Shown here one piece after another: positions 26,880 through 34,148 of a stretch of DNA of 34,207 nt. The stretch is from Nostocoides sp. Soil756. Lineage in GTDB: Bacteria > Actinomycetota > Actinomycetes > Actinomycetales > Dermatophilaceae. The position numbers were made by a program, and so were the translations under genes. Where the stretch lies: positions 652,144-686,350 of the forward strand of contig NZ_LMSE01000004.1 of NCBI RefSeq assembly GCF_001428065.1, given 5' to 3'. Within the stretch, counting starts at the first letter, position 1. Each line of letters opens with the position of its first letter. The notes below the pieces were generated by a model. That model was not told where the DNA came from. It saw nothing but the letters and a program-made list of their open reading frames with translations, and did not search any database.

Positions 26880-26915
26880 GTGGCCCGAGTCCTCGTACTT
26901 GCGCAGCGCGCCTGA
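26880..26915 (+). CDS. ilvB leader peptide (MARVLVLAQRA)
   Basis: Eleven codons, GTG to TGA. The control run is GTC-CTC-GTA-CTT (Val-Leu-Val-Leu), where GTA and CTT are very rare in this GC-rich genome and should make translation sensitive to charged tRNA supply. The GTG is exactly at the expected transcription start, 6 nt after the -10 box, so the leader is probably translated as a leaderless message. Confidence 0.78.
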   Translation: MARVLVLAQRA

Positions 26916-26935
26916 CCAGCACCACCAGGCGCGCT

Positions 26936-26972
26936 CCCTCCGTCGTCCCACCCGGGGCAGGAGGGTTTTTTT
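26936..26972 (+). terminator. Intrinsic terminator of the ilvB attenuator
   Basis: CCCTCC (26936-26941) pairs with GGAGGG (26960-26965), with an inner stem 26946-26949/26954-26957, followed by seven T residues (26966-26972). It is the only hairpin plus T-tract terminator noticed in the window. Confidence 0.85.
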
Positions 26973-30795: not shown

Positions 30796-32382
30796 GTGAC
30801 CAAGCCCGTCGTACTCATCGCCGAAGAGCTCTCGCCCGCGACCGTCGACGCCCTCGGGCCCGACTTCGAGGTCCGTCACACCGACGGCGCCGACCGCTCC
30901 CGGCTCCTGCCGGCCCTCGACGGCGTGGACGCCGTCCTCATCCGCTCCGCCACGCAGATGGACGCCGAGGCGATCGCCGCCGCCAAGGGCCTGAAGGTCA
31001 TCGCCCGCGCCGGTGTCGGCCTCGACAACGTCGACGTCGACGCCGCCACCCAGGCCGGCGTCATGGTCGTGAACGCCCCGACCTCCAACATCACCTCCGC
31101 CGCCGAGCTCGCCATCGGCCTGCTCCTGGCGTGCGCGCGCAACATCGCCCCCGCCAACGAGGTGCTCAAGGGCGGGAAGTGGGCCCGCAGCAAGTACGGC
31201 GGCGTCGAGCTGCTCGAGAAGAAGGTCGGCATCGTCGGCTTCGGCCGCATCGGCCAGCTGGTCGCCGAGCGGCTGAAGGGCTTCGGCGTCGAGATCCTCG
31301 CCTACGACCCCTACGTCTCGGTGCAGCGCGCCGGCCAGCTCGGCGCCCGCCTCGTCACCCTCGACGAGCTGCTGGCCGAGAGCGACTTCATCACCATCCA
31401 TCTGCCGAAGACGCCCGAGACGATGGGGCTCATCGGCAAGGAGGCGCTGAGCAAGGTCAAGCCGAGCGTGCGCATCATCAACGCCGCCCGCGGTGGCGTC
31501 CTCGACGAGGAGGCCCTGGCTGCCGCCATCGCCGAGGGGCGCGTGGCCGGCGCGGGCCTCGACGTGTACGCCAAGGAGCCGTGCACCGACAGCCCGCTGT
31601 TCGCCTTCGAGTCGGTCGTCGTGACCCCGCACCTGGGCGCGTCCACCGAGGAGGCGCAGGAGAAGGCCGGGGTCGCGGTCGCCAAGTCGGTGCGGCTGGC
31701 GCTCGGCGGCGACCTCGTCCCCGATGCGGTCAACGTCTCCGGCGGCGCGGTGGCCGAGGAGGTACGCCCCGGCATCGACCTGGTCGAGAAGCTGGGCCGC
31801 GTCTTCACCGCCATCGCCGGCTCGGTGCCGGTCCAGCTCGACATCGAGGTGCGGGGCGAGATCACCGCGCACGACGTGTCGGTGTGGGAGCTCGCGGCGC
31901 TCAAGGGCGTCTTCACCGACGTCACCGAGGACCCGGTCACCTACGTCAACGCGCCGCTGCTGGCCAAGGAGCGCGGCTGCGAGTCGCGCCTGGTCACCGA
32001 CGCGACCAGCGACGAGTACCGCAACGTCACCACGCTGCGCGGGACGCTGGCCGACGGCACCGTGGTGTCGGTGTCCGGCACCCTCACGGGTCCGAAGATG
32101 GTCCAGAAGGTCATCGAGGTCAACGGCTTCGACCTCGAGGTCCCGCTGAGCCGGCACATGGCGTTCTTCTCCTACGTCGACCGCCCGGGCGTCATCGGCG
32201 CCCTCGGCCGTCTCCTCGGCGACGCCGACGTCAACATCGCCTCGATGCAGGTGTCGCGCCAGGACGAGGGGGGCACCGCCCTGGTCGCCCTCACCGTCGA
32301 CAGCGCCATCCCCGAGGACGTCGTCAGCGCCATCGGTGCCGAGATCGGCGCCGACACGGTCAAGGTCGTCGCCCTCGGCTGA
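30796..32382 (+). CDS. serA: D-3-phosphoglycerate dehydrogenase, long (ASB + ACT) type
   Basis: A 528-residue enzyme, the length of M. tuberculosis SerA, catalysing the first step of serine synthesis. Substrate domain about 1-100; NAD-binding motif VGFGRIGQ in the Rossmann domain. Catalytic residues are visible in INAARGGVL (Arg), DVYAKEP (Glu) and TPHLGAST (His). The intervening domain (about 320-450) carries DIEVRGEI, and the C-terminal ACT domain (YVDRPGVIGALGRLLGDADVNI) binds serine for feedback inhibition. GTG 30796 gives MTKPVVLIAEELSP, the usual N terminus. It is separated from ilvC and from the next unit by strong hairpins, so it is probably transcribed alone. Confidence 0.96.
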   Translation: MTKPVVLIAEELSPATVDALGPDFEVRHTDGADRSRLLPALDGVDAVLIRSATQMDAEAIAAAKGLKVIARAGVGLDNVDVDAATQAGVMVVNAPTSNITSAAELAIGLLLACARNIAPANEVLKGGKWARSKYGGVELLEKKVGIVGFGRIGQLVAERLKGFGVEILAYDPYVSVQRAGQLGARLVTLDELLAESDFITIHLPKTPETMGLIGKEALSKVKPSVRIINAARGGVLDEEALAAAIAEGRVAGAGLDVYAKEPCTDSPLFAFESVVVTPHLGASTEEAQEKAGVAVAKSVRLALGGDLVPDAVNVSGGAVAEEVRPGIDLVEKLGRVFTAIAGSVPVQLDIEVRGEITAHDVSVWELAALKGVFTDVTEDPVTYVNAPLLAKERGCESRLVTDATSDEYRNVTTLRGTLADGTVVSVSGTLTGPKMVQKVIEVNGFDLEVPLSRHMAFFSYVDRPGVIGALGRLLGDADVNIASMQVSRQDEGGTALVALTVDSAIPEDVVSAIGAEIGADTVKVVALG

Positions 32383-32402
32383 GCGCCCGCCACCGTCTCG
32401 CG

Positions 32403-32434
32403 CGGCGGGCCGCCCCCTCGAGGGTGGCCCGCCG
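32403..32434 (+). terminator. Hairpin terminator after serA
   Basis: CGGCGGGCC (32403-32411) pairs with GGCCCGCCG (32426-32434), with an inner CCC/GGG stem closing a TCGA loop. There is no T tract. It starts 20 bp after the serA stop. Confidence 0.85.
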
Positions 32435-32573
32435 TCGGTGTGTCCGGGGGTGCGGCCGAGGGGCTCGCCCGCGGATCGGGTGGAGATCGATGCGGCCGGC
32501 GACGGATCCGGTCGAGGAACCCGTCCTGTGACGCCGATCACGACGTCCAGCGGGTCCACATGATGGATGCCGG

Positions 32574-32609
32574 GTGACGGATACGAGGACGTCCTACTAC
32601 CGTCGAAGG
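32574..32609 (+). promoter_or_regulatory. Promoter of the serA-leuB intergenic leader
   Basis: GTGACG (32574-32579) and TACCGT (32598-32603) are spaced by 18 bp; 6 nt later stands the ATG of the leader peptide (32610). A perfect 10-bp palindrome AGGACGTCCT (32586-32595) occupies the spacer and could bind a regulator. The spacing to the ATG equals that of the ilvB leader. Confidence 0.55.
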
Positions 32610-32657
32610 ATGACGCGGCGGGTACTCCTCATTCCCGGCCGCGACGGGGTCAGGTAG
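32610..32657 (+). CDS. Branched-chain leader peptide (MTRRVLLIPGRDGVR)
   Basis: Fifteen codons from ATG to TAG with the run GTA-CTC-CTC-ATT, i.e. Val-Leu-Leu-Ile: all three branched-chain amino acids in four consecutive codons. GTA and ATT are rare in this genome. The codons after the run form the first arm of the attenuator. There is no ribosome-binding site, and the ATG lies 6 nt after a -10 box, suggesting leaderless translation. Confidence 0.7.
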   Translation: MTRRVLLIPGRDGVR

Positions 32658-32707
32658 CCGGCATCCCCGTCGCGGAGACCCCCGCGACCCCGCCGGCTCC
32701 TCGCGGG
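32639..32707 (+). promoter_or_regulatory. Attenuator with mutually exclusive 1:2, 2:3 and 3:4 stems
   Basis: Segment 1 (32639-32649, CCGCGACGGGG) pairs with segment 2 (32665-32675) over 11 perfect bp. Segment 2 (GTCGCGG, 32669-32675) also pairs with segment 3 (CCGCGAC, 32682-32688) over 7 bp. Segment 3 (CCCGCGA, 32681-32687) pairs with segment 4 (TCGCGGG, 32701-32707) over 7 bp. Segment 1 lies in the leader-peptide codons just past the Val-Leu-Leu-Ile run, so a ribosome stalled there would cover it and favour 2:3. No T tract follows 3:4, so the stop could be T-less termination or something else. Confidence 0.65.
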
Positions 32708-32777
32708 TGCACTCACCGGCTCGAGGACCGACCCCCCCACCGAACGTCGCGGCCAGGCCGCGGGATGTGAGACCACG

Positions 32778-32873
32778 ATGAACGAGAACACCGGCTACGA
32801 CGAGGCCGCCCGCGCGCGCCAGGCCCTGCAGGAGTCGCTGGATCTGCGCGACCAGGGCCACTCCGACGACTGA
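32778..32873 (+). CDS. 31-residue acidic microprotein downstream of the attenuator
   Basis: The ORF begins MNENTGYDEAARARQALQ and ends DLRDQGHSDD. Of its codons all but one (a GAT) have G or C in the third position apart from the stop, matching the bias of neighbouring genes. It has about eight acidic against three basic residues and a probable central amphipathic helix (residues 7-25). No membrane segment, cysteine or known motif. A 6-bp hairpin (32748-32762) and a weak purine stretch (GATGTGAGA) precede the ATG. It lies 70 bp after the attenuator and 65 bp before a terminator-like hairpin, so it may be the only protein made from that short transcript. I do not recognise it; a second leader ORF for leuB is an alternative. 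Confidence 0.55.
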   Translation: MNENTGYDEAARARQALQESLDLRDQGHSDD

Positions 32874-32938
32874 GACGGCCCCGACCATGCCTCCCGGGCG
32901 GGGGCGACCGGTCGGCTGCTTCCCGAAGGACGCCCCTT

Positions 32939-32968
32939 GCGGCCCGGACCACGCGAGGTCCGGGCCGC
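32939..32968 (+). terminator. Perfect 11-bp hairpin between the microprotein and leuB
   Basis: GCGGCCCGGAC (32939-32949) pairs with GTCCGGGCCGC (32958-32968) around an 8-nt loop, without a T tract. It probably closes the attenuator/microprotein transcript before leuB. Confidence 0.75.
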
Positions 32969-33064
32969 TGCGGTGTCCCCGCTCGGCACAGGGTCAAGGG
33001 GCGGGTGGATCTGCGGGTCGGGTCCGGACTCCGGACATGCCGTTCCGGTGGACGAGACGCGACC

Positions 33065-33077
33065 TACCCTGGCACGC
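33065..33077 (+). promoter_or_regulatory. Leaderless-type -10 box of leuB
   Basis: TACCCT at 33065-33070 ends 7 nt before ATG 33078. TTCCGG at 33043-33048 stands 16 bp upstream as a weak -35 candidate. There is no ribosome-binding site before the ATG. Confidence 0.55.
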
Positions 33078-34148
33078 ATGCCCAGCGCTGCGCCGACGCC
33101 CCTGACCTCGCTCGACATCGCCGTCATCGGCGGCGACGGCATCGGCCCCGAGGTCGTGGCGGAGGGGCTGAAGGTCCTCGAGGCCGTCACCGGCCCGGGG
33201 GGCACCCGGGTCACGACCACCGAGTACGACCTCGGCGCCCGCCGCTGGCATGCCACGGGCGAGACGCTGCCGCCGTCGGTGCTCGAGGAGGTCAAGGCCC
33301 ACGACGCCATCCTGCTCGGCGCCATCGGCGACCCCACCGTGCCGAGCGGCGTCCTCGAGCGCGGCGTCCTGCTGCCGCTGCGCTTCGCCCTCGAGCACTA
33401 CGTCAACCTGCGCCCCGCCAAGCTCTACCCGGGCGTCGAGAGCCCGCTGGCCGTCGATCGGGTGGCGCCGAACGGCATCGACTTCGTGGTCGTGCGCGAG
33501 GGGACCGAGGGGCCGTACACCGGCAACGGCGGCGCCCTGCGCGTCGGCACCCCGCACGAGATCGCGACCGAGGTCAGCGTCAACACCCGGTTCGGGGTCG
33601 AGCGCGTGGTCCGTGACGCGTTCGCCCGGGCCCAGGAGCGGCCCCGCCGGCACCTCACCCTGGTGCACAAGCACAACGTGCTCACCCACGCGGGGCACCT
33701 GTGGCGGCGCACGGTCGAGGAGGTCGGCGCCGAGTTCCCCGACGTCGAGACCGCCTACCAGCACGTCGACGCCGCGACCATCTTCCTGGCCACCGACCCG
33801 GGCCGTTTCGACGTCGTTGTCACCGACAACCTCTTCGGCGACATCATCACCGACATCGCCGCGGCCATCGCCGGCGGCATCGGGCTCGCCGCCAGCGGCA
33901 ACATCAACCCCGAGCGCCGGTTCCCGAGCATGTTCGAGCCGGTGCACGGCTCGGCGCCCGACATCGCGGGGCAGGGCGTGGCCGACCCGACCGCGACCAT
34001 CCTCTCGGTCTCGATGCTGCTGGCCCACCTCGGCCTCGCCGACGAGGCCGAGCGGGTCGAGCGTGCCGTGGCCGCCGACCTCGCCGAGCGGGGGAGCGCG
34101 CCGCGCAGCACGACCGCCGTCGGCGACGCCATCGCCACGCGCCTCTGA
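33078..34148 (+). CDS. leuB: 3-isopropylmalate dehydrogenase
   Basis: A 356-residue NAD-dependent beta-decarboxylating dehydrogenase of leucine synthesis. Motifs: [22 protein letters not shown] at the start, [22 protein letters not shown], the substrate region [20 protein letters not shown] in LVHKHNVL, the metal/active-site aspartates in [11 protein letters not shown], and [12 protein letters not shown] before the adenine-binding stretch [16 protein letters not shown] 33078 matches family N termini; the frame extends upstream to 32937 but through a hairpin and without coding bias. It is probably transcribed from its own leaderless promoter, with possible read-through from the attenuated transcript upstream. 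Confidence 0.94.

Follow-up and report, generated by a model that had tools for sequence, protein, structure and literature searches.

The stretch of DNA analyzed here (the window, 34,207 nt) carries ilvB, ilvN, ilvC and serA on its + strand, the gene names being taken from reading of the translations. Downstream of them, a short leader ORF with a run of branched-chain codons lies ahead of an ORF of 31 codons, and leuB follows. Amino acid attenuators are known before biosynthetic, transport and tRNA-charging genes. The locus raises the question of whether this leader serves leuB or the short ORF itself, and by what kind of RNA structure. A sequence-only reading had assigned the leader to the short ORF, had kept a long leader for leuB as the alternative, and had described a classical attenuator. 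The features discussed below are collected in Table 1.

Table 1. Features of the microprotein locus, in positions of the window
Feature	Position	Strand	Details and basis
Promoter-like region	32587..32603	+	GGACGTCC palindrome 32587-32594; -10-like TACCGT 32598-32603
Leader peptide MTRRVLLIPGRDGVR	32610..32657 (ATG to TAG)	+	Read from sequence; 28 aligned relatives; tally of codon runs
Putative regulatory codons GTA CTC CTC ATT	32622-32633	+	Inside leader MTRRVLLIPGRDGVR
Hairpin 1:2, 11 bp	32639..32675	+	Arms 32639-32649 / 32665-32675; leader stop codon in loop
Pseudoknot stem	32657..32697	+	GCCGGC 32657-32662 (loop strand) with GCCGGC 32692-32697; paired-cell count, covariation
Alternative hairpin 2:3, 7 bp	32669..32688	+	Arms 32669-32675 / 32682-32688; exclusive with 1:2
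3:4 stem, 7 bp	32681-32687 with 32701-32707	+	Read from sequence
C-rich spacer, element to ribosome site	32698..32755	+	C/G skew; possible Rho-loading region
GGGATG, ribosome-site region	32762..32767	+	Could pair with CATTCC 32630-32635 of the codon run (base stem)
Microprotein gene, 31 codons, MNENTGYDEAARARQALQESLDLRDQGHSDD	32778..32873	+	Family conservation; pN/pS; predicted helix
Terminator-like perfect 12-bp hairpin, without U-tract	32939..32968	+	Between microprotein gene and leuB
leuB -10-like box and start codon	33065..33080	+	TACCCT 33065-33070; ATG 33078, 7 nt after the box; TANNNT survey

A profile search (E up to 0.01) found the microprotein ORF in 126 of 186 genomes from the family. 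The same profile matched 31 of 297 genomes in the order sample and 6 of 396 in the phylum sample, the three samples overlapping and including the source genome; five of the order-sample matches were weak (G611, G629, G708, G718 and G805, two of which proved on inspection to be an SdhA-like ORF), as were two of the phylum-sample matches (G247 and G259, E about 0.005). With the peptide itself as the query and a limit of E 1, matches came from 30 of 58 relatives, among them 11 of the 12 genus genomes; the weakest of the matches are doubtful. Neighborhoods were compared at 59 loci, that is, the 60 fetched, less the two SdhA-like loci (L144 and L145), plus the window. The microprotein has a near-invariant core, ARQALQESMDLRD; beyond it, one group continues with QGHSDD-like letters and another ends at a stop. 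Over the 59 loci, the core showed a pS of 0.445 and a pN of 0.118 (pN/pS = 0.26). For the whole ORF, the six genus members compared gave a pN/pS of 0.39; frame +1 contained stops in six of six, and frame +2 gave a ratio of 2.2. The ORF was intact, by reading, in 58 of the 59 loci, and a GAAGGA- or GGAG-like site, scored by eye, preceded its start in most of them. On these comparisons, the 31 codons make up a genuine gene, the core of which is under purifying selection. The sequence-only reading had taken the ORF to be protein-coding and had named synonymous-substitution bias and frameshifts as the means of checking it; the spread across the family and the core pN/pS bear it out, and the frameshift check returned a single exception, L140. 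At that locus (genome G017), the start of the microprotein was conserved, the C-terminus was degraded, with 46 codons to the stop, and the leader element was kept upstream.

Searches of Pfam, NCBIfam, PADLOC and PHROGs with two or three forms of the microprotein returned no family, and none of three core strings was printed in the literature searched. Plasmids gave no match, and the PDB, searched by sequence, gave two only, at E 0.46 and 2.5. Judged by these comparisons, the microproteins (20-32 residues) are an unannotated and previously unnamed protein family, conserved within one family of actinobacteria from soil and sludge. A single-sequence fold predicted one helix at residues 4-26, with a mean pLDDT of 78.6. 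An amphipathic character of this helix was considered and is not claimed, because the hydrophobic moment was no higher than that of shuffles in any of three forms (P = 0.23-0.66). A likeness of the core to IRKALQESMDLNAQVFR, a segment of a long ORF at L144 and L145 (genomes G708 and G718; E 1e-4 to 1e-3 per genome in the order sample of 297), was taken as chance; the long ORF presumably encodes succinate dehydrogenase SdhA.

The structure of the leader RNA was counted on an alignment of 28 microprotein leaders. In hairpin 1:2, 99.6% of cells were paired and two pairs were changed on both sides. In the pseudoknot helix (five pairs), 97.1% of cells were paired and three pairs were changed on both sides; its strands read GTCAGC/GCTGAC in most leaders and GCCGGC/GCCGGC in the window. 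When the pseudoknot partner was slid by 1-3 columns, pairing dropped to 28-61%. The covariation score of hairpin plus pseudoknot was reached by none of 500 shuffles; further pair types, one of the five structure measures, were not above shuffles (297 of 500 reached the value). Hairpin 2:3 was paired in 95% of cells over five conserved pairs and showed no covariation. Only 2 of the 28 leaders, those of the window and of its closest relative, had all seven pairs of the 3:4 stem, and this stem was rejected as a terminator. The + strand of 32380-33200 showed neither a terminator-like site nor a U-tract terminator. The conserved architecture, as judged from the alignment, is a hairpin with the leader stop codon in the loop, and this loop pairs downstream as a pseudoknot. 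All three stems of the sequence-only reading were found in the window where it had placed them, and the VLLI-type codons and the 1:2 stem, the conservation of which it had proposed to check, were kept in many relatives. Of the covariation that it had sought in the three stems, that in 1:2 was recovered and that in 2:3 was not, and 3:4 was not conserved. Its classical layout of 1:2, 2:3 and 3:4 stems gives way to the hairpin and pseudoknot.

Two further traits were examined downstream of the pseudoknot. The base stem, in which the codon run would pair with the ribosome-site region, had a duplex energy of -17.5 kcal/mol in the window and of -13.1 to -17.0 kcal/mol in four other genus members. 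Over the 28 microprotein leaders, own partners had no advantage over foreign partners (P = 0.54), but an advantage was seen in 25 leuA leaders (P = 0.011); as a general trait of microprotein leaders, the base stem was not supported. The spacer before the ribosome site contained more C than G in 28 of 28 leaders, with a mean skew of 0.26 against 0.05, -0.06 and -0.02 in three neighboring regions.

The nearest known relative of this element lies upstream of leuA. The LEU element there, as set out in the available portion of Seliverstov et al. 2005 (PMC1262725), comprises a leader peptide with Leu codons, a pseudoknot and a base stem between the codons and the Shine-Dalgarno box. In a BLAST search of the leader region against the source genome, the leuA leader was the next best match after the query itself (E 7e-4). 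A leader model built from the 28 microprotein leaders alone, with the hairpin only, picked up the leuA leader as well, in 29 of 30 loci and at E 1e-7 to 0.0016. Applied to whole genomes, the model recovered the microprotein element from 10 of the 12 genus members; when the source genome was scanned whole, only the microprotein element reached E 0.01, and the leuA leader did not. Rfam gave no match at the gathering score in the window, with chance-level matches near the element, and none at the leuA leader. The element stands 5′ of the microprotein gene, and leuA has a copy of its own on another contig; because of this arrangement, the upstream element is, on the sequence relation, a paralogue of the LEU element with a new target and not the element of leuA itself. 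In one leuA leader from another family (L193, G041:C16:141432-141553), the microprotein-leader model scored 53.7 bits, far above other leuA leaders; this leader is a possible link in the history of the element.

The element was not confined to the leaders that were aligned. Among the 59 neighborhoods, 31 had a model match 5′ of the ORF, of which 28 had built the model and 3 had not, and 28 had none. Of the four loci that came from other families, L131 alone matched the model; L129 also matched, but its leader frame has no stop. In a further set of 64 loci from named genomes, which overlaps the 59, the hairpin core was present in 47 and in none of the control windows 1 kb further upstream, a few loci being short of the full control window. 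At L137, from the same genus, and at L115, the promoter motif and the gene were kept and the element was absent, so the microprotein seems able to be kept without LEU-type control. By these counts, a LEU-type RNA switch would precede the microprotein in roughly half of the carriers sampled, if not in more. The view that a branched-chain leader fronts the microprotein gene and not an enzyme gene, which the sequence-only reading had taken from one locus, draws support from the 31 matches 5′ of the ORF and from the varied genes downstream.

The promoter-like pair proposed earlier was upheld in part. It had no match to the sigma-70 consensus, but a TANNNT box stood 6-8 nt ahead of the leader ATG in 26 of the 28 leaders. 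Because of this short spacing, the leader ORF is probably leaderless; the leuL1 and ilvL leaders of Streptomyces lividans are reported as leaderless in the part of the source available (PMC8079986). The pattern GGACGTCC-NNN-TANNNT occurred within 400 nt 5′ of the microprotein gene in 17 of the 59 loci and in no shuffle, and GGACGTCC is a possible operator for some regulator. The same pattern had one site in the source genome, as had a backward control pattern.

The Val-Leu-Leu-Ile codons noted earlier in the leader are present (Table 1), and in relatives the runs were mixed. Codon runs in the 28 microprotein leaders, which were hand-picked from ORFs with Leu, Ile, Val or Cys runs, held 56 Leu, 33 Ile and 26 Val codons. 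In 28 leuA leaders, 87 of 88 run residues were Leu, this count using a pattern that demands Leu-type codons and that 28 of 30 loci matched; given such selection, some of the purity of the runs follows from the sampling. Because the runs are mixed in microprotein leaders and nearly pure Leu in leuA leaders, the sensor appears to have been retuned to all branched-chain amino acids.

Taken together, we consider it likely that a free-standing microprotein gene is, in many of its carriers, under the control of a LEU-element paralogue, and that a shortage of charged branched-chain tRNA most likely raises its output. Transcription would start at or near the leader ATG. When charged tRNA is ample, the ribosome would reach the leader stop codon and open both the hairpin and the pseudoknot; a deficit of Leu, Ile or Val tRNA would stall it on the codon run, and both would be free to fold. 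The two RNA states would alter microprotein output, most likely upward in starvation, as is assumed for leuA, and since the switch resembles that of leuA, cells probably make the microprotein when branched-chain amino acids are short. In this genus, the stalled ribosome may also free the ribosome site that could otherwise pair with the codon run. In other genera, the off state may be Rho-dependent termination, a suggestion that the C-rich spacer in 28 of 28 leaders fits. A branched-chain biosynthetic enzyme, or else another starvation target, is probably what the microprotein acts on; the former is a first guess because the gene is placed among ilvC, serA, leuB, ilvD and ilvE and under the control of a branched-chain sensor. 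A fuller version, plausible but put forward tentatively, is that of a dedicated starvation peptide: the LEU element would have been copied from leuA, retuned to all three branched-chain tRNAs and joined to a microprotein, in essence a single short and near-invariant helix, which would bind and tune, after translation, a branched-chain enzyme or other starvation target.

The target could instead be leuB, with the whole region acting as a long regulatory leader and the 31-codon ORF as a second leader or an arrest peptide, and leuB is indeed the next gene in 38 of the 59 loci (within 400 nt). In the other 21, however, the peptide is still conserved and another gene follows, namely ilvD directly in 7 (calls that rest on sequence search and ORF reading) and other genes in 14. 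Among the latter, we take the downstream ORFs to encode a transposase, a type II NADH dehydrogenase, a secreted peptidase and a gamma-glutamyltransferase. Because the downstream neighbor varies, the microprotein region does not appear to be a leader for leuB. The leuB gene also has a promoter-like box of its own: in the 95 nt around the start of the leuB match, 37 of 38 loci, but just 3.7% of shuffles, had TANNNT 5-8 nt before a start codon. Perfect stems of at least 9 bp within 110 nt 3′ of the ORF were found in 29 of the 59 loci; they occurred in 1.5% of shuffles and, upstream of the ORF, in 1 of 59 windows. The hairpin and the leuB -10 box that the sequence-only reading had pointed out were thus both recovered and proved common among relatives, and its alternative of a long leuB leader, which the varying downstream gene and the leuB box appear to contradict, is now highly improbable. 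To judge from these motifs, the microprotein gene stands as a separate unit: a promoter-like box precedes it, and a terminator-like hairpin often follows. So short a unit between such a box and such a hairpin could also yield a transcript that is mainly a regulatory RNA, or an RNA of two functions with the peptide secondary. Selection on the ORF acts on amino acids, however, the invariant Ala being written with four codons and a Ser position with five Ser codons, which makes this reading very unlikely.

If the microprotein is accepted as the target, the sensor itself may still be of another kind. A LEU-type element might bind a regulatory protein, with translation of the leader playing no sensing part. 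For leuA, the available text of Seliverstov et al. (PMC1262725) proposes a helicase-like binder and cites codon changes in S. coelicolor that had no effect on regulation. The absence of a U-tract terminator from the + strand of 32380-33200 would agree with such a protein. A binding site of this sort does not readily account for a run that stays Val/Leu/Ile despite changes in base and length, or for one that differs by target, nearly all Leu before leuA and mixed before the microprotein, in samples partly chosen by their runs. In addition, the spacing between the -10 box and the leader start is constant in 26 of 28 leaders. We therefore regard protein binding as rather unlikely, and sensing by translation of the leader, as in the favored reading, is retained.

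Compared with known systems, the microprotein leader is closest to the LEU element of leuA. The two share branched-chain codons near the leader stop, a GCCGCGRCG-type hairpin arm, a pseudoknot and the lack of a U-tract terminator (PMC1262725 and, for S. lividans leuL1, PMC8079986, each as far as the available text goes), and their sequences are directly related. They differ in that the target here is a microprotein gene, the codons are mixed Val/Leu/Ile, and the base stem is seen in this genus and not generally. This is a known and poorly understood RNA element that is used in a new place, before a real microprotein family.

The trp, his and leu attenuators of enterobacteria are the classical cases of ribosome-mediated transcription attenuation. 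As in these, a leader peptide here would sense tRNA charging through exclusive RNA structures, but the terminator stem 3:4 and the U-tract are unconserved or absent. E. coli IlvX is a small protein of an amino acid biosynthesis locus. Like IlvX and like peTrpL of S. meliloti, a small peptide reported in the part of the source available to act in trans (PMC7298713), the microprotein is a small peptide encoded in an amino acid biosynthesis locus. Unlike them, it is a separate gene behind a leader element of its own and not the leader itself.

Should the favored reading be true, an attenuator whose sole conserved target is a peptide of 20-32 residues would indicate that peptide regulators, too, are driven by this kind of sensor. 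An unannotated protein family is defined in a form that is directly testable, and the LEU element, the mechanism of which is disputed, would gain a second natural example with different codons, that is, an evolutionary codon swap.

Other leaders of branched-chain genes were noticed in the course of the analysis. The ilvB leaders of Actinobacteria (here at 26880-26972; in M. tuberculosis before ilvB1, PMC13236596) share with the microprotein leader a short Val/Leu/Ile peptide before a gene of the same pathway, but differ, by the available text of that source, in having a terminator with a U-tract and in controlling AHAS. The copy in the window has the leader MARVLVLAQRA, a terminator-like hairpin and the T-run GGAGGGTTTTTTT, and is a typical ilvB attenuator.

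A short ORF with Ile, Val and Thr codons was also seen at L274 (source genome, G000:C3 near 295905) and at L108, L123, L124, L129 and L206, before a gene that we take to be cimA (citramalate synthase). The leader ORF reads VTFRDAATAAIIIV in the source genome and VATATVIID in L123 and L124. Its stem GCGCGACGAG/CTCGTCGCGC, together with a hairpin that has a U-tract, resembles a classical attenuator, and the LEU-type model matches this leader weakly in relatives.
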